This document shows positions 549 through 36,700 of a stretch of 64,000 bases of DNA, piece after piece. Below the pieces are notes generated by a model. That model was not told the origin of the DNA. It was given only the letters and a program-made list of their open reading frames with translations, and made no database searches. The stretch's first letter is position 1. Each line of letters begins with the position of its first letter. The DNA lies in the NCBI GenBank assembly GCA_009192285.1, contig WBVU01000021.1:464995-528994 (forward strand), in the 5' to 3' direction. Origin of the DNA: Morchella semilibera. Its lineage: Eukaryota > Ascomycota > Pezizomycetes > Pezizales > Morchellaceae. The translations under genes and the position numbers were made by a program.

Positions 549-1172
549 TCAATCCCTCGCCACTCCGCCGTCCTCCCGCGGCCGCGGCGCCCCCATCTCA
601 AGGTTCCACCTCACCGCCCCAAACCCCGGCACCCCCCGCAGCCTCAACCTGCTATCCCCCAGCGCACGGTTCAGCCGCTCCATCTCTCTACGGACGCCGT
701 CCGTGATGGCGCGCACCAGCACCTCAAACTCCTGGTCCGTCCCCTCCGCGCCATGCTGCAGCAGCCGCCGAACCCGCCGCTGCTCCCGGATCAGGTCCAC
801 GCTCTCGACGTAGCCGTGCAGCTGGAACTCGCGGCTCAGGTTTGTCTCCAGCTGGCGCTCGGCGCGCTCGAGGTCGGCGCTGGCGGGCTGGGTCACTGCG
901 TTTGTTAGCCGCGGGCTTGGAGGGGGGACAGGGGGGGGGGGACGTTTTAGCTCTGAGAGGAGGTGGATCAGCTTTGTGCTGTCGCGGATTAGGGACTTGA
1001 CGGTTGAGGCTTGGAGGCGGAGGTGGGCGAGTTCGCGGTCGTGGAGGGTGGCGAGGCGGGTGGGCAAGGGGGGCGGGGGTGGTGGGGGGCTGGGGGTGTA
1101 CTTCCTGGGAGGGGGGGTGGGGGACGGCGGGGAGACGTGGTATTCGATGAGGTCGGGGTCGCTGGTGGACAT
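549..1172 (-). CDS. Proline-rich coiled-coil protein with ARD tail (207 aa)
   Basis: Function unknown. Residues 10-40 form a proline-rich segment with runs of up to seven Pro. A helical stretch (about 40-75) is followed by a second Pro-rich linker (76-90) and a charged helical part rich in Arg, Glu and Leu (100-180). The protein ends in Gly-Gly-Val-Ala-Arg-Asp and a TGA stop. The same Ala-Arg-Asp-stop ending closes the coiled-coil genes at 27978, 29481 and 32281, so I place it in the same family. The second Pro-rich linker is encoded by a C-rich stretch that ends in CTAACAAACGCAG. That resembles a branch site plus acceptor, at the point where the paralogues carry their intron, but the matching donor would be a poor GTCCCC. 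The ATG at 1172 opens the frame just beside a GGTGT repeat. Alternative: a chance GC-rich frame, which the shared tail argues against. Confidence 0.6.
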   Translation of the reverse strand: MSTSDPDLIEYHVSPPSPTPPPRKYTPSPPPPPPPLPTRLATLHDRELAHLRLQASTVKSLIRDSTKLIHLLSELKRPPPPVPPPSPRLTNAVTQPASADLERAERQLETNLSREFQLHGYVESVDLIREQRRVRRLLQHGAEGTDQEFEVLVRAITDGVRREMERLNRALGDSRLRLRGVPGFGAVRWNLEMGAPRPREDGGVARD

Positions 1173-3009: not shown

Positions 3010-4815
3010 GAAAGTCAGACCTTTATTTAGGGTTAGGGTTACTGGAAGCATCTGGATCATGCACAGTAATGGCTACTAAAAAGGAAGTATTCATTTGGGA
3101 TTGTATCGTACCAAGGATTAAAAAAACTGATGAGAAGATGATATAGGGCAAAATCGGGGCTTGTGTTTTGGGACCGTCCAAATTGGAGAGATATCAATAC
3201 ACAAACCGATGTGGACCAAGTTGTCCAAGCTGTTCTCCGTCCCTTCCAGTTCTACAGGAGTGGGATAGAATCACCTGCTTTTTCAGGTTCTTATGGTGGA
3301 TAACTAGTATCCCATAAATAGACAAAAGATTTGTCCGGAGATAAGCGGAGGACGAGCACTCATGCGGGCAAGGAGGGAACGATCCGAACTTTGAACAGTT
3401 GATTACTGGGGAGGGAGCTGAAACACCCACAGCCAGAATCAACTGCTATATAAACTGATATGTCATCTATGAATTCCCAAGAACTCATATAGTAAGGAGC
3501 ACCCCATTGAAAAATAAGAACTTGGATATAATATAATGCAACTACCTTTATATACTCATGCCCGAGGTGTTAGTCCATTGGACAGTATAAATAGCTATGC
3601 CTCTCTTAAATGGGTTTAGCTAAGATATAGACAAACAGATAAGTGGATATTCAGGTCAGAGTAGGTATTGAATTTCAAATTTCCTAACTACAGCGGGTGG
3701 CCGGAGGCCGCACTACACTTGTACTATACAATGGAATAAAAACAGACAACAGCCACCATCAGTCGCGCGCTGCACACCCCACAGCTTCCCTAATCTCCTC
3801 CTTCCCTAATCTCCTCCGTACTCTGCTCCTGCTCCTGGCGCTGCATCTGCAGCCACCGCCTCGCCGCCTCCTCCCGGTGCTGGTCCAGCTCCTCATCTAA
3901 CTCCTTGCGTCGCTTACCCTCCGCCGCTCTCTCCAAGTGTAGGCGCTGCAGCTCCGCCTCCATGTCCCTGTACCGCCGCTTCTCCAGCTCCCTCGGTTCC
4001 TGCAGCAGTTTCGCACCCTCCTCCCGGAGCTGGTCCAGCTCCTCCTCCAACTCCTTGCGTTGTTTACCCTCCGCCGCTCTCTCCGATTGTAGACACTGTA
4101 GATCCTCCTCCAACTCCTTATGGCGCTTAACCTCTGCCGCTCTCTCCGATTGTAGACACTGTAGATCCTCCTCCAACTCCTTATGGCGCTTAACCTCTGC
4201 CGCTCTCTCCGAGTGTAGACGCTGCAGCTCCGTCTCCAACTCCTTGTGTCGCTTGCTCTCCGCCGCTCTCTCCGAGCGTAGACGCCGCAGCTCCACCAGC
4301 GCGTCGTGCACTTGGGAGGGGGTTGGCATCCCCCCGTGGTCACATAGCTGTTTGTATAGGTCAGTCATGTGGTCTATGAGCTGCTGCTCCCGCCAGGCCA
4401 TGATATCCCGGACCCCTCGCCATCGGACCACGAGGCTGGAGAGGCATTCGACGGGGAGCTGCAACACCAGCCCTGCCAGTTGACTCGGAGGCGGCATAGT
4501 GTCGGCCTGATATGTTAGTGCTGGTGGGGCAGGTAGTGGGAGTCGGTGGCCTTACTGCTTCTTGCCCGTGGATGGTAAGGCGGTGGAGCTCCTGCATTAG
4601 GGACTGGTAGTTGGCTAGAACTTGGTCTTCGCTTGCACGGAGAGAGGCGAGCTCGGTCGCTAGATCTGGGGAATTTGCGGCGTCTTGTCCTGTAGGAGAG
4701 TCGTCCATGGCTCGGTGGGCTCGTGGTTGGGGAGGCGATGGGAGATATGGTCGGGGTTAAATGTTTAGGCATCCGCACAAGGGCAGGCGGGGACAGTAGA
4801 TGACTAAGCATGTTA
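3010..4815. repeat. Segmental duplication, left copy
   Basis: This block matches 27175-29405 in the same orientation. Shared landmarks in the same order are the GGGTTAGGGTT motif (3028), an AAGGAAGTATTCATT-like stretch (about 3082), the non-coding run at 3190-3440, the run GCGGGTGGCCGGAGGCCGC near 3695, the whole coiled-coil gene with an identical 49-bp intron, and GTAGATGACTAAGCATGTT at about 4796. The right copy is longer mainly because its gene holds more 63-bp repeats. Confidence 0.85.
3790..4708 (-). CDS. Coiled-coil protein, 21-residue repeats, two exons, ARD tail lost
   Basis: Function unknown. Exon 1 is 4556-4708 and exon 2 is 3790-4506. The 49-bp intron (GTAAGG donor, CTAAC branch, CAG acceptor) is identical to that of the paralogue at 27978-29292, and the splice keeps the frame, giving about 289 aa. 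The N-terminal 50 residues hold a short helix with Tyr-Gln-Ser-Leu-Met. Exon 2 holds about five units of a 21-residue (three-heptad) repeat of the type LxRLxSERAAExKRHKELEEE, a parallel coiled coil. At the 3' end a 16-bp stretch (TTCCCTAATCTCCTCC on the plus strand) is present twice in tandem at 3786-3817. This moves the frame to an early stop, so the protein ends in Gly-Gly-Asp. The codons for Cys-Ala-Ala-Arg-Asp-stop are still present, out of frame, just downstream. The gene is otherwise intact. Confidence 0.75.
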
Positions 4816-8295: not shown

Positions 8296-8831
8296 AGTTT
8301 CGAAGGTAATATTGATAAAGACAGCTTGAGAAGGCATGGTGTAGTGAGGTTATTGACTCTTGTTTGTTGTAGTGGTGATGTTTGATGTAGTGGTGAGGTC
8401 TAGTCCTGCCTGTTTTGGTAGTTAGGTAGGGTAACTTTACAAAAAACCCGGCAGTATATGCTTTCGCGGTAGAGAAGGCGGCCATCCACTTCGGTACACT
8501 CTGCCAGAGATATTTCTTTGCAATGTTTCGTATTCTTCTGTCGTAGGTCCAAAATCTTTTGTGGGAATGGGTCAGCTTGATATCCCTGATCAAATAATTT
8601 CTGTAGGAGGGCGTTCTTTTCAGCGGGTTCATTTGTCAAAGAACCCGCCAACAAATTTAGCTTAGGATCTAAATTTTCCCTCTTCAGAACCGTCTGACTC
8701 TGATGTAGTAACCTTTCATCCCCTTCCCCAGGGAGATCTCCTGATCTCCTAGTTAATGCATCCGGTTTCCCACCTTGTTTCCCTGGCCTGTATTGAATAA
8801 CAAAATTGAAGCGTGATAAATATTCAGCCCA

Positions 8832-10607: not shown

Positions 10608-10919
10608 AACATAGGTGGAAATAGAGTTCTTATTGTGAGCAATGTTACAAGCTACAACTAAGTGGTCTCCATTTACATCAGCAAACTCAACTTGTGACTG
10701 TAGTCTCCCAACAGTCTCCCAGGTCTCCTGAGAGTCTCCTGAGACCCCTGGATATTTTCTGAGTCTCCTGAGGCTCAGGAGACATTAGGAGACAAATGAA
10801 GTCTTGCTGATGTAACTCCTCCTCTGCCGTAACCGAAACCGAAAAATCCGAAATAGAAAACGCAGATAAAGAAAAATCCTTTGAAGGTCCCTGGCGAGGG
10901 CCATGATACTGACCAGGGA

Positions 10920-12251
10920 CTACTGAAAAACCGAAAAACCAGAAGAAGAAATAACATCCGCGGAAGAAGAAGAAGACGAAGAAATAGGGGGGTCACTAGG
11001 AGCAGCCGGAGGGGCAGATAGGGCGGCGCCTCTCATAGCCGGAGGAGGGCCACGAGGGCGGTTGCCTTGGGGGCAATTAGCAAATACATGGTCGGGGGCG
11101 GCGCAGTAGGCACCGCGGCCATTCTCCATTCTCCATTTCTTTTCCGCAGCAGTGGTCTGTAATCGGCCGTGGGCAAACGTATAGCGCTCTTTTGGTGGGG
11201 GACGGATGGCTGAGCGGGTTTGGAGAGCTGAGAGGTCCATTGAGGCGAGGCCTCCTGGGGTATGCGACGGGTGTGGGGGAGCAGATTGTACGGCAAACTG
11301 TCCCATGGGGTTCCTATTGGCCTTATGGGCATCTTTCCTAGCCCTAATCCTATTATCCATGGTCATGAGCCTTCTAACATATGCGTCGAAGCCCTCCGTA
11401 GTGGTATCCTGATAAATCATTGCATCCTTGAGGTCATCAGACAGCCCATTCTCTAGGGCGTCCTTTTTGGCTTCCTCGTTGTAGTCGAGTTGGCCCATGA
11501 TGCGCAAGAATTGTGTAAGGTAGGTGGCGAAGTCTCCTTTGCCCTGGCGGAGGCTCTGGAGTTCCCGCCTGGCGGTACCCTGGGGGTCCGGGTCCCCGAA
11601 GGAGGCTTCCAAAAACATGACAAAGGTAGCGACCGAAGCGAACGGGGGGGCGTCTCCGGTGGCCATGGGGATAACTTGGTCTAACGCTTTCCCCTCTAAC
11701 CGAGAAACGGCGTAGAACACCTTGGCCTCCTCGTTCAGGAACCTGTCATGGTTTACCCTGAGTTTAGTACGGAGGAGATTTAGGAACCCGGGCAGCTCCT
11801 TACGAGCTCCGTTGAACTTGGGGGGGTCTGGGAATTTCTCAGAGCGGAAAGCTGGAGGTGGAGCATTGGCGGGTGGGGGAGGCACTGCTGGGGGTGGTGG
11901 TGGTGGTGGTGGTGGGGGTGGGGGTGGTGGTGCCCGGGCCGCGGCGAGTTGGAATTCCAGGGTGCGAACCTGAGTTTCCAGAGCATCTGTGTGGTTGTTA
12001 GAGGCTGTGAATTGGTCCCTTGCGGTGGCCAACTCTTGTCTGGTTTGGGCGTGTAGGTTTCGGCTAGCATCTCGTTTTGCCTTCCATCGATCCCCTTCCC
12101 GTATAAGGGTTAGGAGATGTACGTAATGATAGTGTAGATCCTCCACTGCTTCGAACTCTGTGAAGGTCTGAGGGATTTGGTAGTTGCCATCGAGGGTGAC
12201 CCAATCCACGATGGTGGCTGGGGGAGGAGGTGGAGGAGCCGGGGTAGACAT
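10920..12251 (-). other. Gypsy fossil: gag-like region
   Basis: A 443-codon open stretch upstream of pol in the same orientation. It has a Pro-rich N-terminal segment, a coiled-coil part, a long proline run, and then a retrotransposon-gag-type helical domain (FLNLLRTKLRVN, YAVSRLEGKAL, FASVATFVMFLEASFGDPD). A zinc-knuckle-like Cys/His cluster (CAAPDHVFANC) follows near the C terminus. This is the usual gag order for fungal Gypsy elements. Confidence 0.8.
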
Positions 12252-12720
12252 GATTGGGTGCAGTGTGGATGACGACGCAACGTAATCTCAAGGAGGGGGT
12301 GGCAGCGTGGCTTTGTTCCACAGGGCATGAGTGGTGACAACGATACGACCCAAGTATAAGGGAAGTATGGGGAAGAAATCGAACGGGCAGCGATAGTCAC
12401 TAAAGAAGTAGAGACTATAAAGTATATTAAATACTAGTTACAGAAGACGTTGCGTGAAGAGAAAAGAAAGAGAAAGAAACTACAGAAGTAGGCGCCGTTG
12501 CCTCCCTTATATACCCAGTATTCCGGAGCCAAGCCTGACTCATATCCTCGCGTAACCCCAACTATGACTCACATCCCTGCGTAACAGAAACCTATGGAAC
12601 CTACTCTGACTCATCCCCGCCTCCGAACTTACAGTAATCCCATCCCCGCCAATCATTCCAGTCCCCCGAACCTAGCGTATCTATAAAAACTACGCGTATA
12701 CGAATACTTCCACAACTATA

Positions 12721-13343: not shown

Positions 13344-13864
13344 TGTTACGGGGTGGGGTCGGGGAATCGAGACGAGAGTTCTAGAGCAGAAGTAGGGTCG
13401 GGCAGAGAGTCCACAGGGAGTCTCTGATTTCAACGTATATGCGGAGGCACCAGTAGATGACTCGGATCACGGTCATACGCAGGGACTAAGTGCGACAGGA
13501 GGCCAAGGGTCCAACCGAGGCAGGCAGCTTCAGGACACGGTGTTACCAAGGGGCACAACTAATAACAGGAATGAGGCGAAGTATAGAACCAAGTATATAT
13601 TTAATATCGAAGCAGGGAAAGAAACCAGATAGAAGACAGAGACAGAGGAACCTAAAGGGAAAGGTTGATAACAGGAGGTTGCGTAAGGAAAGAGGAAAAG
13701 GAAAGACAAAGGAAATCCCAGCCCATATATATATCGCTTCCCTACTATCGATTACTAATCCGTACTATGGAACCCCATAGAATCCCAAAGAAATACCATC
13801 ATTCTACACACCCGATCTTCCATACTAAACCCCGATCAATCCAACCTGAAGAATCCCGATACCA
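13344..13864. mobile_element. Solo LTR fossil inserted in the Pogo relic
   Basis: Begins TGTTACGGGG and ends near CCCGATACCA, which is partly complementary to its start. It separates the DDE part of the Pogo transposase from its C-terminal segment. It contains a TATATATAT promoter-like stretch near 13725. The ends are approximate and no clean target duplication was found. Broken solo copy. Confidence 0.55.
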
Positions 13865-14560
13865 TTACCAACCACTTCTTCTCATCCCTAGCACGTAGAA
13901 TATGCCGTGACAGATCCTTTATTCTTAATTTTGACATATCATTCTCCAAACTAGCACTTATTCTTTCTACCTCAAGCCTGGCATGGCTTGATAAGAAGTA
14001 ACCGTTAGCATGTAGATGTCTCTGGGCTGCAGCTGCTTGGTTGCGGTCTACTGCAGGGCCAATTCTGGGGATAATATCATGAAAATTATTGGGTATAGGA
14101 AGCCCAGGGCCAAAATTCCCAGCGAGGCCAACATGCTTCCAACAATTTTGAATATAGGTAGGAGTAACAAGGTGCCAGGCTTCTCGTGCTAGCTCCATCG
14201 CCTCTAGCTGATTAATTTTGAAGGGAACAATAGTACTGTCCTCTTCATCTCTAGCAATAGCTCTATCGATGAATAATCTCCTATAATGGGCCTTGAAGCA
14301 ACGGATGATACCAGCATCAAGGGGTTGAAGCTGGGAGGTAGAATTCGGCGGGAGATATTCTAGATGGGTGGCCTTTAAATCAAAATCTGCGTCTAAGTGT
14401 GCAGGGCAGTTGTCAACTAAAATAATAACCTGACGGCCCTGTCTTTCCATATCTCGATCAAATGCCTTCAACCACTCCAACCAAATAGTTCCAGTCATCC
14501 ATGCCTTTTTATTTGACTTGTAATTGAACCCGAAACTGCTGACAGATCTTTTTCCATAGC
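13864..14560 (-). pseudogene. Fot1/Pogo transposase, DDE-domain segment
   Basis: This is the longest open part of the Pogo transposase (open frame down from 14498). It carries the second catalytic region VILVDNCPAHLD and the third region LPPNSTSQLQPLDAGIIRCFKAHYR, both with their Asp residues. A C-terminal helical part (MSKLRIKDLSRHILRARDEKKW) follows and is cut by the LTR at 13344-13864. The upstream remainder lies beyond two more LTR insertions. DDE transposases cut and rejoin element ends; this copy cannot, because its first catalytic Asp region is altered and the gene is split. Confidence 0.8.
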
Positions 14561-14610
14561 ACCTTGGCCTTTTAGCTCATCCAATAACTAGCGGTTCTCG
14601 TTTATCACTA

Positions 14611-20410: not shown

Positions 20411-23400
20411 TTACATAAAGTAGTCGGTCATCTCGATTGACTTTGAAGGGTTGTATGAACGCCAAGCTCTTGGCTGCATGTCTTGGGTGCGCCGTCGCAT
20501 GGTTAGGAGTCCTCCGGCGCTCATGAAGCTCGAGCTCTTCAACACCAGGCTCCTCAATATTGACCGAAAAAAAAAAATCACTTCCGCGTATCCACTACGT
20601 ATAGAACCGTCTGAAATGGCCAGCTCATACCGAATGTATGACGAGTTCCTGTTATAATTGCTTTTTCTCATAGTAGAAGACGTAATCAAAGTGGGCTTGT
20701 GCTTTTCTACTTTTTGCGTTTCAGAACCATCAACTTCCATCATCGGCCAGCGAGTACATTTTTTGGGGATGTCGTCCATATCAAGTTGCGTATAGAAAAA
20801 ATCTGATACATTACTGCTTGACAAGTAAGCCTTCAAAGCCCGTCGCTGCCATGTGTCTAGAACGCCCCTCCTCGGATGTCCCCTGAAAATGGGATGCTCA
20901 TGATTTAAAGTCAATCGGTCTGAGATGGCGATACTTGGTTGCAGTCGCCTTATGAATATACGGTGTAGGAGTACGTTACCGTCCTCGTCCTCCCCTTCAC
21001 CATCCCCGAGGTCTGCAACGTTTGGTGAGGGCCGACGGATAACGTATGGAAAATGGTTTTGTTGCTCGTTCAATGTCATAGTAATCGCAAGGTTTCGATT
21101 TGCTGAGACTCTAGATTTTGCTGAAGATGCAATCATACCACATACCCGTTCCATGGGCCATTGCCAATATACAAACATGGGACCAGCCCAGCGTAACCCA
21201 TCCGCAACATGGAGGATTTGGTGGAATACCGGTAGGCATGCAGGTAGCCTTTCCCAACGTCTACCATAATATCGGCCTTCGTAGTACTTTGCGAAGCGCT
21301 GGAGACGTGACTCGACTACATCTATCTCAGCCTCTGTTATCTCGAAATCACAAGAGAGGCGGATAGCATCTATAAGATTGATAAATTCGTTGTAATCACT
21401 TTCCGGAAGTCTGTCTTTCAGATATATAGGTGCTAGCTGCAGAGCGAATGTCTGCCACTCTGCCGCCTTCATGTGACCACAATTCTCAGTAAAATCTCTG
21501 ATGGGCTCTCCAAATAAGGCAGGGAACGACTTCGCACTCTGTGCCATATCCTTGCCAAGTTGAATCCATTCGTCGGGGGGAATATTGTAAGGATCGTCAT
21601 TTTTCACGAATTTCTTGGCGGTATTTGTCGTGTTGGTAATGTTCGCGGCGTTGCTCCTTCTTCCTCTTGGTACCCTCCTTTCAACCCTTTGTTCATCTCC
21701 AGATCCCTCAACACTGGACCCCCGATTTGCCGATATTATGTTAGCGGTGGCAATATCAGAGAAGAACTTACCGCGCCAATGCTTAACCATATCAGGTATG
21801 ATATTCTCCCACCATAAATGCATCGCATCCGGTGGAAAGCTCCTCGGGATATCAATAGAAGCTAGCTCATCCAGACAAGATGGCCCTTTGATACCGTAGA
21901 ACTTCGCCGCCCTATCGTCACCGGTTCGGAGAATATGATGAGCAGTTTTGCGTGAGTCTTGATCATTTCTCATAGGAAGATTAGTAGCGTCGTAAGTCTT
22001 CCAATCAGAAGTTACTGCACCTCGTGCATTGATATTGTCAGGTGGGTTGGATGGCGGAGCCAATGGGCAGTATATTCCACGGTTGTGGATTCCACGGATA
22101 TAGCAGTAAGGACAGTAGCTAGTAGCGCGATTTCCTTTGAAGTTCATTAACTTCTCCCTTCCCGGCATATCAGCTCCGACAACCGCAATATAGGCGTGGA
22201 GAGTAAACACCTCCTTCCGCGAAGCATTCCATGCAGAAATACCCGATCCGAGTTGTATGAATTCCTTTACGAGCGGGAACAAAAAAGAATCCAAATCCTT
22301 TGGATTATTCGGCCCCGGAACAAAACCCACTAACAGCATGTTTCGTTTCTTGAACCTATCTGCAGGATGGATATTCAGGTTTATCTACATTGAGAAGTTA
22401 AAGAGTGTTAGTCTGACATAAACGTGCTAGTATAGTCATGCATATATTGAAAGGAGAGAGACATACTAAAAGTATCGGCCATATATTGAATGCCTTCCGA
22501 CTTTTAAAGACTCTCACCCCATCCGAACTCATCATGAATGCCATGTCGGTATCATCTTTAAAGAGCTCTTTTTTTGTTTTCATGTCTTCAAACAGATCAC
22601 TAGACCAATAATCAGATCTTAACCCGGAAAATCGATCCTGCTCAGCCGAATATCTATACGAGACAAGGCTTTCAGCAGTGGATGCGTCAGAATACATCAG
22701 CGACAAGCGATGCTGAACAGGGATGTAGCTATGTGTAGCATATGCGATTTTCTTTCCATCCCGATTGACTTTCCACCTTGGTCGATCACAATATAGGCAT
22801 TTGTCCAGATCGGGATACATCGAATATGACATATGGCTTTCAGAACAGCAATCATATTGTACTTCCTTCACACCCGTTCTTCGTTCAATCCGGCTTCTCA
22901 CGGTGCGGTAATCCAAAGGTCTATCAGCTGGCCGCTCGACAGCCACTGCAAGGAGATCCGCATGGTCACGAGAAGCACACCTAGCGATTTTATGCTGAAG
23001 AGAGATGTCGTGCTGCGCGAAACTTATCAATTCTTGTCTTGTGAGAGGTTCACCAAAAGGGTTCTTATAATCGAACAGATTTCGATTTTGATCTTCCTCC
23101 TCTCCAACCTCTTGTGCATTGTTGTCATCTCCTTCGTCGTCCGAATCAGAAGTTTGGATAGATTCCTCATAAGAATCTAGTTCATCATGGGAATCAGGCT
23201 CATCGGAGACCACTTCCCCAGGCTCCGAATCCACACGCACGAAACCACGGTTCATCTGACCAAACGGTTCGTCACTATCACAACTACCCGAAGACGTTGA
23301 TAATTGATCAAGTATTGGAGGGGCGTCAGAAACTTCAGTTGTATCATCCGAGCCCTCTCGGTCATCTATGGACATAGTGATGGCAGGTGGGTCCGGAGAT

Positions 23401-24092
23401 GGAGGTGCAATGCTACCAGGGTCGTCCCCGGTACCGGTATCGATAACCACATTGACGAGATCACTTACAGGCATAAGATCGTCCTCATCATCTGCAAACC
23501 AAGATTCATCTTCTTGATCATATCCAGCTCGGGAATCATTATCAGACCCAGAGATCCCGTGAACAGGATAGTCAGAATCCGAGGAGGCTGGGTCTTCTGG
23601 GTCACTTGGAGGCGGCAATTCCGGATCAGAATCTAGATCATCGGCTTCGAGAATGGGTGCTGGCAATTCCGGATCAGAATCTAGATCATCGACTTCGGGA
23701 ATGGGTGCTGGTATTTCTGGATCTGAATCTGAATCTTCATATATGACTGGATCTGAAACATTATCCGGCTCGTCGATAATCGGGGGTTCCGGATCTGAAT
23801 CGGGTTCCTCAAGATATGGGGCTGGTAGTTCTGGATCTGAATTTATATCAACTTGGGGGGGATTTGACGATGGATCTGAGTCGCTGGAATCATGTAAAGA
23901 AGCGTCTTGATGCGCTGACCTGGGCGCTGTTGATGGTACCAATGTACTCGCGATCGGCTGCGCATGCCGCAATTGTAGAGCAGCGCGGCGTACATCTGCC
24001 CTCTTAAGTGCAGCGTGCCTCGCCCAGTCCCGCTGATTGGTAACGATGTGGACAGGTCCCCCCATCATCGAGCAATCGCATTGTCGACTCAT
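20411..24092 (-). CDS. Plavaka-like CMC (En/Spm-type) transposase, two exons, about 1,199 aa
   Basis: Exons 22467-24092 and 20411-22384 flank an 82-bp intron with GTATGT donor, CTAAC branch and TAG acceptor; the splice keeps the frame. N-terminal Cys/His cluster (CDC, then HIVTNQRDWARHAALKR) resembles the zinc finger that opens such transposases. Residues about 50-320 are a long acidic Asp/Ser/Glu-rich linker with repeated SDSDPE-type units. The catalytic part follows. A Cys pair lies in DKCLYCDRPRW; SSDGVRVFKSRKAFNIWP likely holds the first Asp. Across the splice come INLNIHPADRFKKRNMLLVGFVPGP, a zinc knuckle (CPYC), FPPDAMHLWWENI (second Asp) and WPMERVCGMIASSAKSR (likely catalytic Glu). 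SSYIRYELAI near the C terminus is also typical. The frame is open throughout, so the enzyme could be functional. A further intron in the last 130 codons is possible. Confidence 0.85.
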
Positions 24093-24204
24093 TGTGAAAG
24101 ATGTTGCAATTGCGTTGTGTGGTGTGAGTTCAAAACGTGGCCTGGTGGATGCTCAATATCATGCATGAGCAGGCACCATGCAGGACCGATAACGTTATCA
24201 TCAC
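24093..24204. promoter_or_regulatory. Short divergent promoter region in the CMC element
   Basis: The transposase (minus) and the small two-exon gene (plus) start within about 110 bp of each other, so their promoters must overlap. It contains a TCACGTGA palindrome just downstream, at about 24194-24201. No clear TATA box. Confidence 0.45.
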
Positions 24205-26137: not shown

Positions 26138-26199
26138 ATGGTGGAATTATGATAGGTTTTGCTGTACCATACAAAAAAGGGCTCAATGCCATGTTTAGT

Positions 26200-26565
26200 T
26201 ATTCTTTATCAGGAAAAAAACTCAACAGCATATTTATTGGAAAGCTATCAAAAAAAATACTCGGCACTAAATCTAGTCCCTCCCTATCAAGAAAAAAGTC
26301 TCAGAAAAATATCTTTCCTATTAGGAATACCATATAAAAAAGAGTCGGTAGCATGTCTAGTCCTTCGCTATCAAGAAACAAAAAACCCGTCAGCATGTCT
26401 AGTCCTTGCCTATCAGGGAAAAAAAAACCCGGCAGCATGCCTAGTCCTTCCCTATCAGGAAAGAAAAACTCGGCAGTATGTCTAGTCCTTCTCTATCACG
26501 AAAAAAACTCAATTATACAAAAAAACTCGGCAGTATATTTATTAGGACACTATAAAAAACAAGTA
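26200..26565. repeat. Degenerate minisatellite, unit about 50-55 bp
   Basis: Each unit contains CTCGGCAGCATGTCTAG-like and CCTTCCCTATCAGGAAA-like parts, about six to seven imperfect copies. Long A-runs occur in each. Open frames over it are repeat artefacts. Confidence 0.75.
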
Positions 26566-27174
26566 GCACAATATTAGTTGTGGTTGTGTTGCTAAAGTCA
26601 TTTTGCAATTTGGTTTATACGTGCCCCCGTAGCCAGCTGAGGAGGACACTTGAACAGTTGGAGAACAGTGAGTTCTTACCACCAGAGGTGTCGCACAGGC
26701 ATGGGAGGATCTCTGCAGCAACCATTGCAAGATAGTTATTGATTCCTTCCGGCACGTTAGACTGTCTCTTCCAACTGATAGAAGCGGTGACCATGAACTC
26801 AATATTAAAGGGTTCGGCCCAGTAGAAATAGGAGATTGGAGGTGGCTAAAAGATCAGAATGAATTCAGAGAAATTCCTGTAAATAATGACGAGTCCGAAG
26901 CAGTAAGTGCAACAAGAGAACAGTTAGCAAATGAGTTTCTGCTGTTCAGGGATCGCTATTGTGCCAGGTCAGCCGTTGTCATGAGGGGAGCCCTTGAAAA
27001 TTTTCAGGTATCTTTCTGCTATCGTAACAGAAATTTCAGCTTCCACTATTGATTTCCGGCATCTGGCTGTGGTTCAGTCACAGATATCCATGGCAAGAAC
27101 CTGAAAAGGATCCCGAACAGTCGATACCTGGCGTTGCAGAATCCCTCTATTCCGGCTTCGGCCCTGGGGTCTGG
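26566..27174 (+). other. Spacer with one exon-like open stretch
   Basis: From about 26815 a plus-strand frame stays open for about 65 codons (FGPVEIGDWRWLKD, then EAVSATREQLANEF and LFRDRYCARSAVVMRGALENF). It ends at a GTATCT donor-like site near 27007, with an ATTTCAG acceptor-like site 32 nt later. I do not recognise the peptide, and nothing downstream extends it convincingly. It may be a decayed exon. Confidence 0.25.
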
Positions 27175-29405
27175 GAGTCAGACCTTTGGTTAGGGTTAGG
27201 GTTACCTGTGAGTGCTCCATTTAGTTGTGTGGTACTGCTGGAAGTACTTGGATGGCGATAATGATTACTGAAAAGGGAGTATTCATTTAGGATTGTTTCG
27301 CACCAAGGATTAAAAGAAGCTGCTGAGATGATGATATAGGGTGTTATCGTCGGTGGTACAGAATCCGTGGTATACTGCTCGTTATCCACCATCAAAAGCT
27401 CAAAATGCAAGTGACGAGGATAGGGATAATTAGCTGGAGAACTGTCTTGGCCCCATAGACCTATTTGCACCTGCATTTTCAGCTTCTTGATAACGAGTAT
27501 CCTATAAACCGACAAAGAATTAGTCCCGAGATAAGCGGAGGACAAACACTCATGCGGGCAAGGAGGGATCGATCCCGGCTGTGAACACTTGATTGCTGGG
27601 GAGGGGGGTGCCAATGACTGGAAGGGCGAGCACCTCTAGTCGGGATCAACTGCTCCATAAGCCGATATATCATCCATGAATTCTCGAGGACTCATATAGT
27701 AAGGAGCACCTTATTAAGAAATAATAACTTGGATATAATACAATGCAACATGCCCGAGGTTTTGATGGTTGATCAACCTAAATCGATTGGACAATATATA
27801 TAGCTATTCCTCTCATAGCTGGCTTTAGCTAATATATAGACAAACAGATAGGTGGATATTCAGGTCAGAGTAGGTATTGAATTTCAAATTTCGTGACTAC
27901 AGCGGGTGGCCGGAGGCCGCACTACACTTGTATCATATGATAGAATATAACCACATAAAAACAGACAACAGCCACCATCAGTCGCGCGCTGCACACCCCA
28001 CAGCGTCCTCAGTCTCCCCCGCCCCCTGTTCCTGCTCCTGGCGCTGCATCTGCAGCCAGCGCCTCACCCCCTCCTCCCGGAGCTGATCCAGGTCCTCATC
28101 CAACTCCTTGCGTCGCTTACCCTCCGCCGCTCTCTCCAAGTGTAGACGCTGCAGCTCCTCCTCCAACACCTTGCGTCGCTCACTCTCCGTCGCTCTCTCC
28201 GAGTGTAGATACTGTAGCTCCCCCTCCAACTCCTTGCGTCGCTCACCCTCCGCCGCTCTCTCCGAGTGTAAACACTGCAGCTCCTCCTCCAACTCCTTGC
28301 GTCGCTCACCCTCCGCCGCTCTCTCCGATTGTAAACACTGCAGCTCCTCCTCCAACTCCTTGCGTCGCTCACCCTCCGCCGCTCTCTCCGATTGTAAACG
28401 CTGCAGCTCCTCCTCCAACTCCTTGTGTCGCTTACTCTCCGCCGCTCGCTCCGAGTGCAGACGCTGCAGCTCCTCCTCCAACTCCTTGTGTCGCTTACTC
28501 TCCGCCGCTCTCTCCGAGTGCAGACGCTGCAGCTCCTCCTCCAACTCCTTGTGTCGCTTACTCTCCGCCGCTCTCTCCGAGTGCAGACGCTGCAGCTCCT
28601 CCTCCAACTCCTTGTGTCGCTTACTCTCCGCCGCTCTCTCCGAGTGCAGACGCTGCAGCTCCTCCTCCAACTCCTTGTGTCGCTTACTCTCCGCCGCTCT
28701 CTCCGAGTGCAGACGCTGCAGCTCCTCCTCCAACTCCTTGTGTCGCTTACTCTCCGCCGCTCTCTCCGAGTGCAGACGCTGCAGCTCCTCCTCTAACTCC
28801 TTGCGTCGCTCACCCTCCGCCGCTCCATCCGAGTGTAGACGCTGCAGCTTCGCCTCCAACTCCTTGTGTCGCTCACTCTCCGCCGCTCTCTCCGAGCGTA
28901 GACGCTGCAGCTCCAGCAGCTGGGCCTGGTAGAGGGTTCCCGTCGTCTCGAGGTCACTCAGTTGGCCGCGCAGGTACTGAACCTGGTCCTTGAGGTCCTG
29001 CTCCTCCTTGACCATGAGATCCCGGACCCCTCGCGATTCGGACACGAGGTTGGAGAGTTCTCTGGTGGCGAACCGCGACACCATAGGTACCAGGTAACTC
29101 GGAGGCTGCATAGTGTGGGGCTGATATGTTAGTGCTGGTGGGGCAGGTAGTGGGAGTCGGTGGCCTTACTGTTCCTCCCCAGTGGATGATAAGCCGCTGG
29201 AAATCCTCCATTAGGTGCTGGTAGGTGATTAGAACTACCTCTTCGTTGTGATTGAGATAGGCGAGCTGCCTCTCGATTGAGGTATCGGCCATGGCTAGGT
29301 GAGTGCGTGGCTGGGGAGGCGATGGGGCATGAAGTCGGTGGTAACGGTTAAGGCATCCCCACATGCGGCAGGTAGGGACAGTAGATGACTAAGCATGTTT
29401 CACTC
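27175..29405. repeat. Segmental duplication, right copy
   Basis: Matches 3010-4815 in the same order and orientation, including non-coding 3' DNA, the gene, its 49-bp intron and the 5' flank up to GTAGATGACTAAGCATGTT. It begins with a GGTTAGGGTTAGGGTTA motif. Confidence 0.85.
27978..29292 (-). CDS. Coiled-coil protein with thirteen 21-residue repeats and ARD tail (about 421 aa)
   Basis: Function unknown. Exon 1 is 29170-29292 and exon 2 is 27978-29120. The 49-bp intron (GTAAGG, CACTAAC, CAG) matches that of the 3790-4708 paralogue base for base, and the splice keeps the frame. The N terminus is a helix ending in YQHLMEDFQRLIIH. Exon 2 starts with a segment containing RGVRDLMV. It continues as about 13 units of LQRLHSERAAESKRHKELEEE, three heptads with Leu at core positions, so a long coiled coil is predicted. 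Six central units are almost identical at the DNA level (63 bp each), which points to recent expansion. The C terminus is DAVGCAARD-stop. It is the first of three coiled-coil genes in tandem. Confidence 0.8.
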
Positions 29406-29480
29406 AGGCTCGTATCTGCAAGGAAAGACTGGTACAATATCATTGTATTTAATCTACCACCAAGCGATAACCGGCCCCTA

Positions 29481-31211
29481 TCAATCACGAGCGACAATAA
29501 ACTCCGACTCTCCTTTCATCATTGAACCCCCTTCTGCTTCTGGCTCCACTCCATCCAATCTTACAAGATCCTCCAGTTTCATTTTCACCTCTTTCTTCAT
29601 ATTTTCCCTAATCTCCTTAATATCATTCCGTACTCCCTCCATCAGCAGCGCCTTCTCCTTGTTGAAGTGCTCAAAGAACCCATTATATAGCTCCTGCCGC
29701 ACCTGTGACCTTTCCTCCTCGATGGCCGCTTGGAAGTCCCCTTCCCTCGGTTGCTCCTCCACCACTGGCTCCTTCCGCAGTTGCTCCTCGAGTTTTGTTT
29801 CAGCTACCTTGGCCCGCTCACGTGCTTGGTCCAACATCTCCTGCCTCCTCAGAAGCTGCTCTGCCAGCTCTGCCTCGGTCGCCTTGGAGTGCTCGAGTGC
29901 TTGGGTCAATTGGTTCGAAAGTTCTTCCTCGTTTCGTAGCTGCTCTTGTAGGTTGGTCTCGACTGACCTGACCTGCTTGCGTGCCTGTTCCAATTGCTCT
30001 AGAATCCCCTTCTCTTTTTGAAGATACTGCTCCTTTAGTTTGGTCTCCGCTGCCCTGGCCTCTCCCCGTGCTTGGTTCAACTGATCCTCGAGTCGCCCCT
30101 CCTTCTGCAGCTGCTCCTGCAGCTTGGCCTCGAGTGACTCGACCTGGTAGAGTGCTTCTTCCAGAACGATCCGCTGCTGCAGGAGCTCGTCCAGTAGCTT
30201 GGCCTTGGTTTCCTTGGCTTCCACTCCTGCTTTTGACATTTGGACTAAAAGCTGCTTCTCCTTCCGCAGATGCTCCCGCCGCTTGGTCTCCGCTGCATTG
30301 GCCTGCTCGCATGCTTGGTCCAAGGCCGCCTGCTTCTTCAGGAGCTGCTCTAGTAGCTTGGCCTCCGTCGACTCTGCTCGTCCGCGTACATCGTCCAAGG
30401 TCTCCTGCGCCTTCTGTAACTCCTGGCGTAAATTTGTCTCTGTTCCCTTTGCTTCCTCGTGTACAAGGTCCAAGCGCTCCTGCTTTTCCCGCAACTGGGC
30501 CTCTAGATTTTTCTCCACTATCGTGGCCTGTGCGCGTGCTTGGTCCAACATCTCCTGCTTCCTCTGCAGCTGCTCCTGTAAGTTCTCGTCTGTCGCCTTC
30601 GCCTGCTGCCATGCTTGGCCGAACATCCCCTGGTTCTCCAGCAGCTGCTCCCGTAGGTCGGTCTCTATTGCCTTGGCCTGCTCGCATGCCTCGCGCAAAA
30701 GTTCCTGCTTTCTCTGCAGCTCCTCCTGTAGACCTGCCTCTGCTGCCTTGGCCTGCTCGCGCACATGGTCCAAGGGCCCATGCCCCTCCTGCAGCTGAAC
30801 TCCTAGATTCCTCTCCACTATCGTGACCTGTGCGCGTGCTTGATCTAGGATCTCCTGATTCCCCAACATTCCTTCCTGAAATTTGGTCTCAGTTGCCTTA
30901 AGCCGCCCCCGTGCTTGGTCCAAAATCTCCTGACCCCTCAATATTCGCTCTCCCGATTCGGTCTCAGTTAACTTGAGTTGCACGTGTGCTTCATCCAGCG
31001 TCGCCTGATTCCTCAACATTTGTTCTTGCAACTTGGTCTCAGTTTCCTTGAGTTGCTCGCGTGCTTGGTCCAGAAGCTCCTGCTTCTTTCGTAACTCGAG
31101 TAGATTGGTCTCGCTTGCCTCGGCCCGCTCGCTTGCTTGTTCCGTCAGTAGCTTCTCCTGCGGATAGGTCTCGCTTCTCTCGGCCTGCTCGCTTGCTTGT
31201 TCAGTTGGTAG
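29481..31211 (-). CDS. Coiled-coil protein with 25-residue repeats and ARD tail (5' end unresolved)
   Basis: Function unknown. The frame is open for about 576 codons from 31211. A TAG at 31212-31214 could be a stop or the acceptor of an upstream intron (CAACGGTAG), since the paralogues have a small first exon. I could not fix that exon, and the first Met in this frame is near 31016. Most of the protein is a coiled coil made of units about 25 residues apart (for example EQLLKKQAALDQACEQANAAET and QELQKAQETLDDVRGRAEST), a spacing of 7+7+11 residues. The last 90 residues hold VRQELYNGFFEHFNKEKALL followed by MEGVRNDIKE, shared with the gene at 32281. The end is EFIVARD-stop. Confidence 0.7.
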   Translation of the reverse strand, partial: LPTEQASEQAERSETYPQEKLLTEQASERAEASETNLLELRKKQELLDQAREQLKETETKLQEQMLRNQATLDEAHVQLKLTETESGERILRGQEILDQARGRLKATETKFQEGMLGNQEILDQARAQVTIVERNLGVQLQEGHGPLDHVREQAKAAEAGLQEELQRKQELLREACEQAKAIETDLREQLLENQGMFGQAWQQAKATDENLQEQLQRKQEMLDQARAQATIVEKNLEAQLREKQERLDLVHEEAKGTETNLRQELQKAQETLDDVRGRAESTEAKLLEQLLKKQAALDQACEQANAAETKRREHLRKEKQLLVQMSKAGVEAKETKAKLLDELLQQRIVLEEALYQVESLEAKLQEQLQKEGRLEDQLNQARGEARAAETKLKEQYLQKEKGILEQLEQARKQVRSVETNLQEQLRNEEELSNQLTQALEHSKATEAELAEQLLRRQEMLDQARERAKVAETKLEEQLRKEPVVEEQPREGDFQAAIEEERSQVRQELYNGFFEHFNKEKALLMEGVRNDIKEIRENMKKEVKMKLEDLVRLDGVEPEAEGGSMMKGESEFIVARD

Positions 31212-32280
31212 CTACCGTTGTGGATTGGTCCCCATCACAAACCTTCGTCGCCCCTCCATATCTTCCCCACAAACATCCTCAGTCAATATGCTCATCCTCC
31301 TCCTCCCTACCCTTAACCCCCTCCCCCCGTACCTCCCCCATCCGGTCTCTTCGTACGGCCACCGGGAGAATGAAGGCATACCGCCGATTTGTAGAGTTGG
31401 ATCGGGCTGAACGTATTTCTCTCGCCCAGAGTTTACGGATATCCTAGCCTCGTGTCAGGTGCGAGTCTGGCCTGGCGGGGGTCGCCGCGGGAGTTAGCTT
31501 CATCAGTGAGCGACAGCGGGGTGTCAATAACTCACATGTGGCCTGGCGCCTGCTACGGTAATACTAGCACGGTGGTGGTGATGGCGGTGATGGGTGGTGG
31601 TGTCTGCGGCAGCGGTGGGGGTCGCGATGGTGATGACTAGGCCTCCAACGAGGTTAGGTTGCTGACTAAGCACGCCTTGTCTCCGCGCAAATTACCCTTG
31701 CCCAGAGTCGGGAGGTGAGAAAAAAGATGTTTGGAACTCCGGTGGAACCAAAGGTATTGTTGCATCTAGGTAGTCTCGTTCCCACGGTGATGTTAATGGT
31801 GGTGGTGGTGGTTGTATAATTTAGGTTCATCACAGTAGGTTCTGGGGCAATAACTTTTCGGGAAAAAACCGGGTTTCTAAATAACCTCGCCGGACTTTTT
31901 TTGGTAGAGAATCCGGAGTTTTTGGCATAGCAACCGGGGATTTTGGAGGGCAACCGGACTTTTTTTGGTGCAGAATCCGGAGTTTTGGGGGGCTCTTTGG
32001 CATAGAAACCGGACTTCCGGCATAGCAATGGGCAAAAAAGGGACTGGTACAAACCTTTTGGGCAAGCACACCAGACCCTTCTGGTATTGAACCATACAAC
32101 CAAAAAAATACTGCTGGGGTCTGGGAACGAGACTAGCATCTAGGTTCCTTCTACGTTTACCATTGTCCTACCCGGGTCCTAGAACAGAGAATATCAAATA
32201 TCAACTTTACTTATATCTGTAAAAAAAGACTAGTACAACATCATCAAACATTTCATCCGCCCGAGTGATAGTAGTTCTCA
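31212..32280. other. Spacer between coiled-coil genes with simple repeats
   Basis: No complete gene. It may contain the first exon of the gene ending at 29481. GGTGGTGATGGCGG-type triplet repeats lie at 31571-31630. The block repeat at 31865-32060 is listed separately. A plus-strand pyrimidine-rich stretch runs from 31240 to 31340. Confidence 0.5.
31865..32060. repeat. Short imperfect direct repeats
   Basis: A block with CCGGACTTTTTTTGGT and AGAATCCGGAGTTTTTGGCATAG elements occurs two to three times, with unit spacing of roughly 65-75 bp. Confidence 0.65.
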
Positions 32281-33744
32281 TCAATCACGGGCAACGTCAC
32301 TATCCCAATCCTCTCCCACGATTGGCCTCTCTTCTCCTTCTAGCTTAACCTGATTCAATACCAATATATCCTCCTCTTTTATATCTTCATGAATGTCTTT
32401 ACGCACCCCTTCCATAAGCAGTGCCTTTTCTCTAGTAAAGTTCTCAGAGAACCCACTATAGAACTCCTGACGCACCCGTGCTTTTTCCTCCTCGACGGCT
32501 ACCCGAAATCTCTCCTGCTCTTCCTCCCTCTCTTTGTGCTCATTCCGTAGCTCCTGTTGCAGCCTAGCCTCGGTTTCTTTAGCCTGCTTGCGTGCTTGTT
32601 CCAATTGATTCAAAAGCTCCTGCTGCAGCCTGGTCTCGGTTTCTTTGACCTGCTTGCGTTCTTGATCCAATTGATTCAAAAGCTCCTGCTGGAGCCTGGT
32701 CTCGGTTTCTTTGGCCTGCCTGCGTTCTTGATCCAATTGATTCAAAAGCTCCTGCTCCTTCTGCTGCTGCTCCTCTAGTTTGGTCTCGGCCGCCGCGGCT
32801 ATCTCGCGCGCTTGTTCTAGTTGTCCCTCGAGGGCCTTCTCCCTTATCCAGTGTACCTTCTTCACTCTCTCTGATTCCCGGCGCGCACAAATCCTCTCCA
32901 CCTCAAGCTCCAAGGAGTAGCGCTTCTCCGTTTCTTCTTGGATTCTTCTCCGCTCCCTTCCGAACTCATTGAGTAAATCCTGACGCACTTTTACCTTCCC
33001 GCTCTCTCCTGTAAGTTGGAGCCTCCTTATCTCTCGATCCATCTGGTCTCGGTGTGCACAGCGTGCTTGTTCTAAGTTCTTGTCCTGCTGCCGCAACTCT
33101 GCCAGTAGCACCTTTCTGGCTGGAATATTCCTCTCCAACTCTCTGACCAATTCCTCGTGCTTTTCCTCCATAGATGTCATCCGGTTCTGTACATCAACTC
33201 TTTGTCGCTCCCATAGCTCCTGCAATTCGGTCACTATATTGTTCGCATCCTCGAGGTCCTTCCTTAGACCTTGGGTTGCGGCAGCTGCTCCCTCCGACTC
33301 TCGTAGCCGGCGCTGGAGCAAGCTCTCCCTATGCTGCATTTTAGTTCGCAGGTCCCGTTCCCTTCCCACAATCCCGCGGATTACCTCGTTTAGTCTCACG
33401 TGGAGCTCCAGCCTGGCCGAGATAACAGTTAATGTCCACCCCATAGCGGGCGATATGCCGGTATCGGGAACTTACGGGCTTCCCCTCTCCCGCAGTATTC
33501 GGATAGTCTCCGAACTATAGGATAGCATGTAAGCCTCGTCCTGGAACAGGCTATTGAAGGTATTGAACAGCGAGGGTAGTTGGGTCGACGAGTCTGGTGG
33601 TGGTTGTGGTGATGGTGGCGGCAGAAGTACTTGGGGCGTCGCCATCGGGCTTTGTAGGGGTGGTACTTGCCGACGATCCACTTCTCCGTGGTGCGCTCGA
33701 AGCACTTTCCCCCACTCCCTGATATTTTCTTGAAGATTGGACAT
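32281..33744 (-). CDS. Coiled-coil protein with 22-residue repeats and ARD tail (about 466 aa)
   Basis: Function unknown. Exon 1 is 33476-33744 and exon 2 is 32281-33412. The 63-bp intron has a GTAAGT donor, a TTAAC-like branch and a CAG acceptor, and the phase-2 splice keeps the frame. Exon 1 encodes a Pro-rich segment followed by SLFNTFNSLFQDEAYMLSYS. Exon 2 is almost wholly coiled coil, with three nearly identical 22-residue units (ELLNQLDQERRQAKETETRLQQ type, two hendecads, 66 bp each). The C-terminal block VRQEFYSGFSENFTREKALL followed by MEGVRKDIHE matches the gene ending at 29481. The end is SDVARD-stop. It is the third of the tandem coiled-coil genes, all on the same strand. Confidence 0.8.
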
Positions 33745-36700
33745 TCGTATAGCTGGTACGGCGCGAGGAGTTGGCGGTAGTGGTAGTGGTAGTAGTGAGT
33801 GGGGCAGTTACTAGGCCCCCAACCACTCGCGTGAGACCGGCTGACTAAGAACTCTTAGCGAAAACTTCAGACCCATCAAACGGCAGGCGAGAAATTAAGG
33901 TGGTGTTTGGAACGCTCTTTATATCATTAACCTACCTCAAACCGTTAGCGGAGCCTACCAAAGAATCGCAAAATATCAGGTCAGTTTACCACCTTTTCCC
34001 TTGATATCAGAGCGCAGCCCCCTCAACTGTGCCACAGCCCACCCCGGCCCCCCGGACCTCTGGACGCCCAGTAGGATTTTCCTTTGCGACCTCTGTGCCT
34101 GATTCATTCCTACCTACCTCAGCTACCCCACGACGAATCTCCAATACCCAAGGGTAAGGGTATCTGGTTTTCAGGGTTAGGGTTGGCTCGGCCAACGCTT
34201 GGATATCATAATTCATTTATTCATTTATTTATTTATACTCCATACGTATTCACCCATTTAACCCGCTACTCTAGGAGATCATAATTGGATATGAGGCTTT
34301 CCTTCTTTTCATTTAATTTCTCACTTGTGTGCGGTCCCTCGGCTATGTACTAACGCAGTATTTTCTCCTGCCCACCCACCGCGTCCCCGACATAAGAAAG
34401 TAAAATAACCACGAGAAAAGGGGTATGAGGCCCCTTACCAAGTCCTGTCAGCATATGTATACATGTACTTACCTACCAAACCCCCCAACCCATTACATAT
34501 ATAGAAGCCATTCAAGGCACCAGCGAGACCTCCGCATGTGTTTAGTAGACACCCTGCGACAAGCGCCTCATGCCGGCGGAACCTACAAGGTATGAGCTAC
34601 CCAGGTTCCAGGGGGTCTCCATTTATCGATAGCTCAGTAAGGGGAACGCGCCCGGGCAACCCGGAGCTTACTGGCCTGATTATGGCGCACTGCAACAGCG
34701 ATTGGTTGGTTTTTGTACCCAGCATCCAGTTCATAGTAACGTTGTGGGACGCCTGATTTGAAGCGTCAATTTGGAAGTAGGCTTGGCATGTGGCGCCTGT
34801 TTGGCGCTTGGTTGGTCGGCGCGTGTTAGGCTTGGCAGATCTTTTCTCACTCCCCCCTCCTTTTGTTTCGTTTCTCATCAATCAATCATCATCGTTCATA
34901 GCATAAAGTTCGCATCGTGAACGCAAGCGTCTATCTAAAGTACAAAACCCTCTTTTACGTCCACAAGCCTACAACGTCACATGAAGCAACCATATCCCCC
35001 TACAGGCACCCGCCACTTACGGAGAAGGGTTCTTTCGTAAATCATTACACTAGTAAGCTCAATTCGCTTAGATCCCATATTGAGACCACTAAAGTATTGT
35101 CTAGCCTGTTTATTCCTCTGATCAACACCTATTAGACAAAAAAATTTGATCAACACTTCTACCGGGGTGCGTCATCGGTTATCACTCGTCTGTAACGAAC
35201 AAGTGGGTTTATTCTATTATTTATTTATTTTGTTTAATTCATTAATCTTTCAGCTATAGCAATATCGCAGTATATTTAATCCCGAGAATACTACTCCATC
35301 CACCACAATCTCAATGGGAAGAGAGGAGATAATAAATACACTCTGTCTCATGTTCAACATTGACCAACATGGTGCGCTCACCATCTCTAGCCTCTCCATC
35401 CACCATGTAAACCCTCCCCCATCCCTAGCGAGCAAACGAGTGATTGATAATTCATGCATGCATGCAACCCGAAGGCTATTGCAAAAACCTTCCCCACTCA
35501 CCAGTGGCAAGACAAATATTCCTCGTTCGTGGGGGGGGGATACGGGAGGGGTAGTGATCTGTCACTGACTCCCACAATAGGAACCAACTCAGCGCGCTCA
35601 CTATCTCAAGCCTTGATCTGTCAAATATCGAGATATTTGTTTGGGCGGTATTGGGAAGTGAAGGGGGTGGTGAAGGGGGCTTGTATTGCCTATGGACCGT
35701 AGGACCGGGAGTGCTATGGTTATATTGCCGTGCATTCCGTTTGGGAAGACGTGGTTAGCCCAGGAAACTTGCTGGACGGTGCTGGTTTAACGAGAGCTGC
35801 GCAATATTGGTGCTTGGATGGGTCCTGCCTGGCGAGCTTATACTACTATGGTGGCAGAAGGTCCTCTGGCAGGTGTGGTGAGATGCCTGGGAATTACATT
35901 GTAAGAGGTTGGTTATATAAAGTCATGATACCCGCCACAATCGGCCATGTTGCTGCCGGCACCTCCGGATTTTCTTCCGGCGCATTGTAGACTGATGTAA
36001 GAACTGACTTAGAAGGGAGGGAAGATGGGGGGGGGGGGTTGATCTGGTGGGGTGCTTGCTGAATGTAAGAAGCGCAATCCTAAACCTGGTGACATTAAAA
36101 AAATTTCTTTTTCCGGTTGTGGCCTGTACTGTTTCGGTCTATTGAGTTTCAAACAATAGTCCCCCGCCCGCAATCCACGAGCTGAAGGGAGTTTGTCTTC
36201 AGAGGTATAGATAGGGAGCCGTGAATGAAGGCGCCGCCGGAGAAGCAACTACATCCAAAGGCTCACAGAAGATCAGGTAATCCATCATAAGCGGCACGGG
36301 ACCTGGACAAGTATGTGACGGCCAGTTGGAGGCAACAGCTCCTGTTTTTGGACTTTCGGATACTGTTGCTTAAACAAAGCTGTCGAATCAGACAGGTGTG
36401 GTCAGGTTCGGTGGCGACCAACAAGGAGCTACCAGATTGTCTTCGACCGCATTGCATTACTGATGCTGACAGGAATCCTAATAGAGAATATCTCTCGGAG
36501 TCGTTTCGCTCCCGAAATGAGTGATGAGTAGACCGATTTTTTCTGGTTTGAGAAGACCTTGACTGACCTGGAATCTCGGTAATCTGCTCAGTTTGGGAAC
36601 AAGCCCTGCCCCTACCTTGTTCTAGTACGGAGGGTGCTTATAGACAAGTGTGTAAGAGAAAAGAATTCTTGGTCCCTATTGAGTATCTGATCTAAAATCA

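Follow-up and report, generated by a model that had tools for sequence, protein, structure and literature searches.

The peroxisomal targeting signal type 1 (PTS1) is a C-terminal tripeptide that ends in Leu, Met or a similar hydrophobic residue, and the chaperones Hsp70 and Hsp90 carry a C-terminal EEVD sequence, which is bound by TPR clamps. The wtf killer meiotic drivers of fission yeasts have multiple membrane spans, and we know of no fixed C-terminal motif as a feature of the wtf family. An excerpt of a report on this family describes tandem repeats inside coding exons, gene conversion and pseudogenes, and places the FLEX element in only part of the wtf genes (PMC9562144). Positive selection and repeats are among the topics of a paper on fungal NLR genes, as far as an excerpt of that paper goes (PMC4986451). 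Here, we describe a cluster of predicted genes in the morel Morchella semilibera, most of which lie in a stretch of 64,000 nucleotides from contig WBVU01000021.1 (assembly GCA_009192285.1, positions 464,995 to 528,994), referred to below as the window. Their products share the C-terminal tail [V/I/A/M]-A-[R/K]-D-COOH. We lean towards the view that they form a local, fast-evolving helical or coiled-coil family, not described before, with a docking motif at the free end of a flexible, acidic tail.

The cluster resembles the wtf drivers in its clustered paralogs near long terminal repeat (LTR) elements, its coding repeats, its pseudogenes and its fast evolution, but it differs from them in the lack of an exact FLEX element and of a clear membrane span. 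The 11-mer of the Mei4-type FLEX element, GTAAACAAACA, and its first 10 bases had no exact copy on either strand of the 153 kb around the window that all local scans covered (C17:415000-568217, with C17 denoting the window's contig). A crude hydropathy scan of the eight proteins detected no strongly hydrophobic span of 19 residues (maximum mean hydropathy 0.34-1.59). The cluster shares its fast evolution with the fungal NLR/HET allorecognition genes, while its members, unlike those genes, have no match to NACHT/NB-ARC or HET. The tail is like PTS1 in being a short signal at a free C terminus with a small and then a basic residue at positions −3 and −2, but it ends in Asp instead of a hydrophobic residue. 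It is like EEVD in that a flexible, acidic linker leads to a free Asp carboxylate at the C terminus, but Ala and Arg or Lys precede this Asp in place of Glu and Val, and no chaperone domain is present. Two traits of tandem diversifying families were compared, and clustered same-strand paralogs were found here (three groups in 39 kb), while a nonsynonymous excess was found in one gene pair only, A and A'. A local, tandem, diversifying gene family is a known kind of locus; what is unusual is the fixed C-terminal anchor.

The cluster and its C-terminal tail

The window corresponds to C17:464995-528994 in an assembly of 56.8 Mb and 23 contigs. The cluster consists of eight genes on the minus strand, which are spread over 39 kb (C17 459.4-498.7 kb) with transposons interspersed, and three of which (D, F and G) adjoin the window on its left. 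From low to high coordinate the genes are named D, F, G, E (ending at 549), A' (3790), A (27978), B (29481) and C (32281), and all gene models and splice sites are predictions from sequence. In all eight tails, including that of A', which lies behind a frame shift, the last residue is Asp. The first-pass annotation had reported that the frames at 549, 27978, 29481 and 32281 end in (Val/Ala)-Ala-Arg-Asp followed by TGA, and these ends were confirmed on the minus strand as GVARD, GCAARD, IVARD and DVARD. Its observation that the frame at 3790 retains the tail codons past a frame change also held. This frame of A' ends in EEIREGGD-TAG, while VGCAARD-TGA is present in another frame, in which a pattern match placed the AARD-TGA codons at 3759..3773 (C17:468753-468767, minus strand). 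A 16-base direct duplication at 3786..3817 on the minus strand, with adjacent copies whose first bases are 3817 and 3801, is located where the two frames diverge. Outside the window, gene D (C17:459437-460017, minus strand) has the tail IARD. A relaxed search for the tail in the 153 kb added two minus-strand frames of 118 residues between D and E, which are the last frames of gene F (C17:460802-461440, ending in GGIAKD-TAG) and gene G (C17:462181-463029, ending in DIDMAKD-TGA). Ala-Arg-Asp is too narrow as the defining mark of the family, because two further neighbours end in IAKD and MAKD.

Five of the 76 frames of at least 150 residues in the 153 kb end in ARD, while every other tripeptide ends at most one; among frames of at least 100 residues the fraction is 5/254. 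When the last 60 residues of these 254 frames were shuffled, five ARD ends were obtained in 0/2000 shuffles and five ends of any one tripeptide in 2/2000. Genome-wide, [VA]ARD-TGA was present at 30 sites (14 + 16), compared with 17 (11 + 6) for the reversed-pattern controls, and a frame longer than 101 residues was located behind four of the 30 sites, all four inside the window. The pattern for IARD-TGA matched 17 times (control 10); seven matches had Ser, and only one of the 10 true sites, which is that of gene D in the same cluster, had a frame longer than 55 residues behind it. For [VAI]ARD-TGA as a whole, five of the 40 genome sites close a frame longer than 101 residues, all five being confined to 38 kb of one strand, although a criterion of frame length would miss genes elsewhere in the genome with a short last exon. 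Before TAA or TAG, [VIAMT]A(R/S)D gave 138 matches versus 79 in the control, and none of the matches listed (100 of the 138, in contig order) was on C17. The fact that ARD on long frames was found only in one 39-kb same-strand cluster fits tandem duplication and not convergence on a signal.

The codons of the tail vary more than its residues. Arg is encoded by CGN in A, A', B and C and by AGG in D and E, Lys by AAG in F and G, and the Ala and Asp codons differ among members. The conserved C-terminal stretch of B (29481..29735, minus strand), which matches C at 32281-32508, consists of 40 constrained codons, a loose linker and the terminal VARD. Over 75 codons the proportions of changed synonymous (pS) and nonsynonymous (pN) sites were 0.57 and 0.26, and the ratio of nonsynonymous to synonymous rates (dN/dS) was 0.10 over the first 40 codons and 0.84 over the last 25, which form the linker. 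The terminal VARD is identical in the two genes, with two silent changes in its four codons. The fact that the codons differ synonymously indicates that the protein end is what is kept, and the B/C pattern looks like that expected of a short linear motif that follows a loose linker. The 12-17 residues ahead of the tail contain three to seven acidic residues in the five ARD genes. Stop-codon read-through with a shared extension was rejected, because the bases 3' of the stops differ between groups. In AlphaFold models of C exon 2 (two sequences; mean predicted local distance difference test score, pLDDT, 78) and of E (single sequence; mean pLDDT 54), helices are followed by terminal stretches of 39 and 34 residues, respectively, with pLDDT below 50, and these weak models agree with a flexible end. 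Together, the comparisons support protein-level conservation of the tail, while most of the bodies are not alignable. A signal at the extreme C terminus, as proposed by the first-pass annotation, is supported as far as conservation goes, by an end that is kept as protein through synonymous changes and behind a variable linker, but a widespread family marked by ARD is not supported.

Relationships among the eight genes

A tblastn search with the frame of C detected B with an E value of 6e-25 (residues 211-382 of 396), and the two genes align to their ends. A detected A' with an E value of 1e-48, and the alignment of these two genes at the DNA level extends from the 5' flank through the 3' flank. 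In exon 2, each pairing among D, F and G scored 0/5000 in shuffles, and in exon 1 the values were 0 (F-G), 5 (D-F) and 11 (D-G) of 5000. Three paralog groups, B/C, A/A' and D/F/G, are well supported by these alignments. The earlier description of the bodies as quite different is correct in that most of them are not alignable, but the genes ending at 29481 and 32281, and those ending at 27978 and 3790, are plain paralogs. Between groups, exon 1 of C and D gave 0/5000, D and E 3 and 8 of 5000, and C and E 93 and 89 of 5000. When leave-one-out profiles of exon 1 were searched against the 153 kb, D and F were recovered as best matches (E values 0.025 and 0.052). In tblastn searches with five members, each found at most one other member, and searches of the genome itself with the frames of C, A and E and exon 2 of F and G found nothing outside C17.

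The sequences upstream of the genes provide a further comparison. The promoter octamer CTTAGTCA has five minus-strand copies in the 153 kb, all five upstream of cluster genes, and one further copy on the plus strand. The minus-strand copies are located at 4801..4808 (−100 of A'), 29386..29393 (−101 of A), 31663..31670 (upstream of B) and 33842..33849 (−105 of C), and at −91 of G. The octamer was chosen from the A/A' alignment, hence only B, C and G test it, and it provides independent support for a link between the groups. On balance, the eight genes probably form one family by descent, which would be extremely diverged; the link of A/A' to the rest is also probable, the tie consisting only of the octamer, the tail and the strand. 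We somewhat prefer the view that the locus holds one local gene family, rather than five unrelated coiled coils.

The predicted architecture is a short exon 1 followed by one short intron (49-72 nucleotides) in A, A', C, D, F and G, and tentatively in E, and the short introns here have CTAAC-like branch sites. All models given below are on the minus strand. Gene C (33744-32281; 466 residues) consists of exon 1 at 33744-33476, a 63-nucleotide intron at 33475-33413 and exon 2 at 33412-32281. Gene A (29292-27978; 421 residues) has exon 1 at 29292-29170, an intron at 29169-29121 (or to 29106) and exon 2 down to 27978, and gene A' (4708-3790) has exon 1 at 4708-4556, an intron at 4555-4507 and exon 2 at 4506-3790. 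The upstream exons of F and G are separated from their last frames by introns of 72 and 63 nucleotides, respectively. Gene E (549..1172) is a frame of 207 residues with a tentative 48-nucleotide intron (bases 943-896); it is open either way and would encode 191 residues without the intron. Gene B (31211-29481) is an open frame of 576 residues with an in-frame TAG directly upstream of it at 31212-31214, and no first exon was found upstream of this frame. The repeat unit differs by gene, being 63 nucleotides (21 residues) in A, mostly 75 nucleotides (25 residues) in B, most of whose frame it makes up, and 66 nucleotides (22 residues) in C. The helical bodies of A, B and C have expanded by these repeats. 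E, which the first-pass annotation counted among the coiled coils, is a short helical protein and not an evident coiled coil. The repeat-rich DNA in the window gives long frames in several frames, antisense included, and a plus-strand tblastn match of A at C17:493351 was set aside as the antisense of A's own repeats.

Searches for known relatives gave no described family. No Pfam family scored above the cut-off for A, B, C, D, E, F, G or exon 2 of A', and the members scanned had no Pfam match to NACHT, NB-ARC, HET, ankyrin, TPR, WD or chaperone domains. Sub-threshold Pfam hits (HMMR_N and LOH1CR12 on A, DUF3584 on C and Pec_lyase_N on F) were taken as chance coil matches, and the weak matches of gene E and the tail piece of B to solved structures (best E values 0.11 and 0.044) as chance helix matches. 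No relative of C exon 2 was detected in prokaryote and viral collections (10 and 132 pattern stretches, none confirmed). In line with the first-pass annotation, which knew of no described family with this mark, none was found in Pfam or in the open-licence literature searched, although absence from that literature is weak evidence of novelty.

Divergence of A and A' and surroundings of the cluster

The N-terminal coding part of A (28902..29292, minus strand; exon 1 and the start of exon 2) shows a nonsynonymous excess relative to A'. In 114 aligned codons outside the 63-nucleotide repeats, dN was 0.485 and dS 0.194, with changes at 93.1 of 260.7 nonsynonymous sites and at 13.9 of 81.3 synonymous sites (p 0.001, Fisher test). 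In a pairwise codon model omega was 3.62 (p 4e-4 versus omega of 1), and 3.99 for exon 2 alone (p 0.0025). Noncoding divergence was 0/49 in the intron, 27/201 in the 3' flank and 20/109 in the 5' flank. The nonsynonymous divergence (93/261) was higher than this noncoding divergence (47/359; p 4e-11), while the synonymous divergence (14/81) did not differ from it (p 0.37); these comparisons are to be read with a GC content at third codon positions of 0.68-0.75, and the flanks could have been homogenised by segmental gene conversion. The 3' flank is probably near neutral, because it contains a dispersed repeat (window 27600-27949 in A, with its counterpart in A'), which has another 15 matches outside C17, spread over 12 places on 12 contigs. 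In the two ungapped cores the changes by codon position 1/2/3 were 10/11/5 and 22/20/12, and the predicted frame had the highest ratio of the six in both pieces (5.98 and 2.98; others 0.47 to 2.2). An overlapping frame as the source of the high omega was rejected, because the predicted frame is the only one that runs through the core of exon 2 without a stop in both genes. In the 39 codons directly upstream of the tail, 8 of 117 sites differ (0/3/5 by codon position). These data support diversifying selection on the N-terminal part of A/A', with the stretch before the tail nearly unchanged. The C-terminal stretch of B/C has the opposite sign, which is that of purifying selection.

The introns of A (29169-29121) and A' (4555-4507) are identical in 49 of 49 bases. 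With the intron kept, A and A' continue without a stop over some length in one shared alternative frame (4361-4756 and 28954-29388, minus strand), in which the intron encodes an identical stretch of 16 residues.

Several mobile elements lie among the genes. A Ty3-type retroelement with reverse transcriptase, RNase H and gag frames is located at window 8400-12287, a CACTA-type element with a Tnp2 transposase (Transposase_21) at 20411-24152 and a DDE_1 transposase frame at 13836-14576, all on the minus strand. Frames that look like CACTA elements by eye are located at C17:422-426 kb and 549-553 kb. Interstitial telomere-like repeats of the TTAGGGTTAGGG type were observed in or near the cluster at window 3028 and 27191, and CCCTAA upstream of D near C17:460.2 kb. 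Short, diverged repeats with a unit like GATAG-GAAGGACTAG form an array at window positions of about 26150-26600. The sequence GCGGCTAGAGATTAG is found on many contigs, often in two copies with a spacing of about 8 kb, which resembles the arrangement of LTRs in an element. The contig pairs C9/C10, C12/C13 and C21/C22 carry the same patterns at near-equal coordinates, as if two haplotypes had been partly assembled, and no second copy of the cluster was seen in the pattern scans of the genome.

Interpretation of the locus

If the anatomy of the predicted proteins is a guide, the free Ala-Arg/Lys-Asp end would be a short linear motif that docks onto one conserved partner. The helices or rods would hold or present that common partner, and the variable N-terminal part would meet something fast-changing, in the manner of recognition or conflict genes. 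A variable N-terminal half combined with gene-specific rod repeats and a fixed free end points to adaptors or scaffolds, in which the terminal carboxylate would plug into the common partner while the other end tracks a changing target. A role in conflict or recognition would be a reasonable extension of the selection result.

Several results weigh against a single diversifying family with a docking tail. The intron phases differ, being 0 in A and A', 2 in C, and 1 in D, F, G and tentatively E, which argues against a single conserved splice site. None of the 20 comparisons of A/A' with C, D, E, F and G over both exons was significant (best A-F exon 2, 49/5000), and the leave-one-out profiles failed to recover C, E and G among the five members in the 153 kb. 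No copy of CTTAGTCA within one mismatch is present in the 160 bases upstream of D, E or F. The omega excess comes from one gene pair, one member of which (A') is damaged at its end, and for exon 1 alone it is not significant (omega 2.23, p 0.18). The E model is of low confidence throughout, so its disordered end means little. Finally, [VIM]AKD-stop had 41 matches in the genome versus 34 for the reversed-pattern control, which is no real excess. Eight of the 41 end in TGG, which is not a stop, and the 33 with a true stop comprise four on C17 and 29 elsewhere. F and G account for two of the C17 sites; the other two, at window 26357 (a simple repeat) and at C17:395293 (a 15-mer present at five places), were dropped. 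Further AKD-tailed genes elsewhere in the genome are possible.

One alternative is an ordinary structural helical or coiled-coil family that diverges fast in a transposon-rich region, in which tandem duplicates drift and specialise after duplication, and in which the tail is a housekeeping contact or a stability determinant, with no role in recognition or conflict. Coiled-coil repeats tolerate change and expand by slippage, and such repeat arrays are seen here; the C-terminal stretch of B/C is under purifying selection (dN/dS of 0.10 over 40 codons), and omega exceeds 1 in one pair only. On the other hand, relaxed constraint would bring omega near 1 and not to 3.6, and the nonsynonymous changes would then not exceed those in the intron and flanks, which makes this explanation possible but rather unlikely. 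Another alternative is a cluster of killer meiotic drivers or incompatibility genes in the style of wtf, with local paralogs beside transposons, variable repeats and broken copies. In its favour, the present cluster is local, with a damaged copy, coding repeats and diversifying selection, and coding tandem repeats, gene conversion and pseudogenes appear in the excerpted account of the wtf family (PMC9562144). With no exact FLEX element in the 153 kb and hydropathy that reaches at most 1.59 over 19 residues, we consider a driver cluster very unlikely.

The remaining explanations concern the tail itself. A sorting signal of known type, such as a variant of the peroxisomal PTS1, would be suited by Ala-Arg at −3 and −2, and an excerpt of one report indicates that non-canonical fungal PTS1 ends exist (PMC12316961). 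However, all eight tails have a terminal Asp, and the hydrophobic residue is at −4 instead of at the end, which leaves such a signal highly improbable. Chance or an annotation artefact, with untranslated low-complexity frames that happen to end alike, would draw on the tendency of repeat-rich DNA to yield long frames in several frames and in antisense. This is scarcely credible in view of the tail shuffles (0/2000), the location of all long-frame sites in one cluster, and the codon signatures in the predicted frame, which are purifying in B/C and diversifying in A/A'.

We return to the preferred interpretation, a local diversifying family with a fixed docking tail. In its boldest form, [VIAM]-A-[RK]-D-COOH would be a docking code not yet described, which connects fast-diversifying helical and coiled-coil proteins to a single conserved machine of the cell, and the locus would act in recognition or conflict and encode a new type of fungal protein; as judged from the sequence, this extended form is doubtful. 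Should diversifying selection be borne out in strains, the cluster would be a candidate recognition or conflict locus. The tail could be used to fish for the common partner and to filter other fungal proteomes for unalignable relatives. Families of this kind are nearly invisible to ordinary homology searches, and a C-terminal mark would make such an orphan locus traceable.

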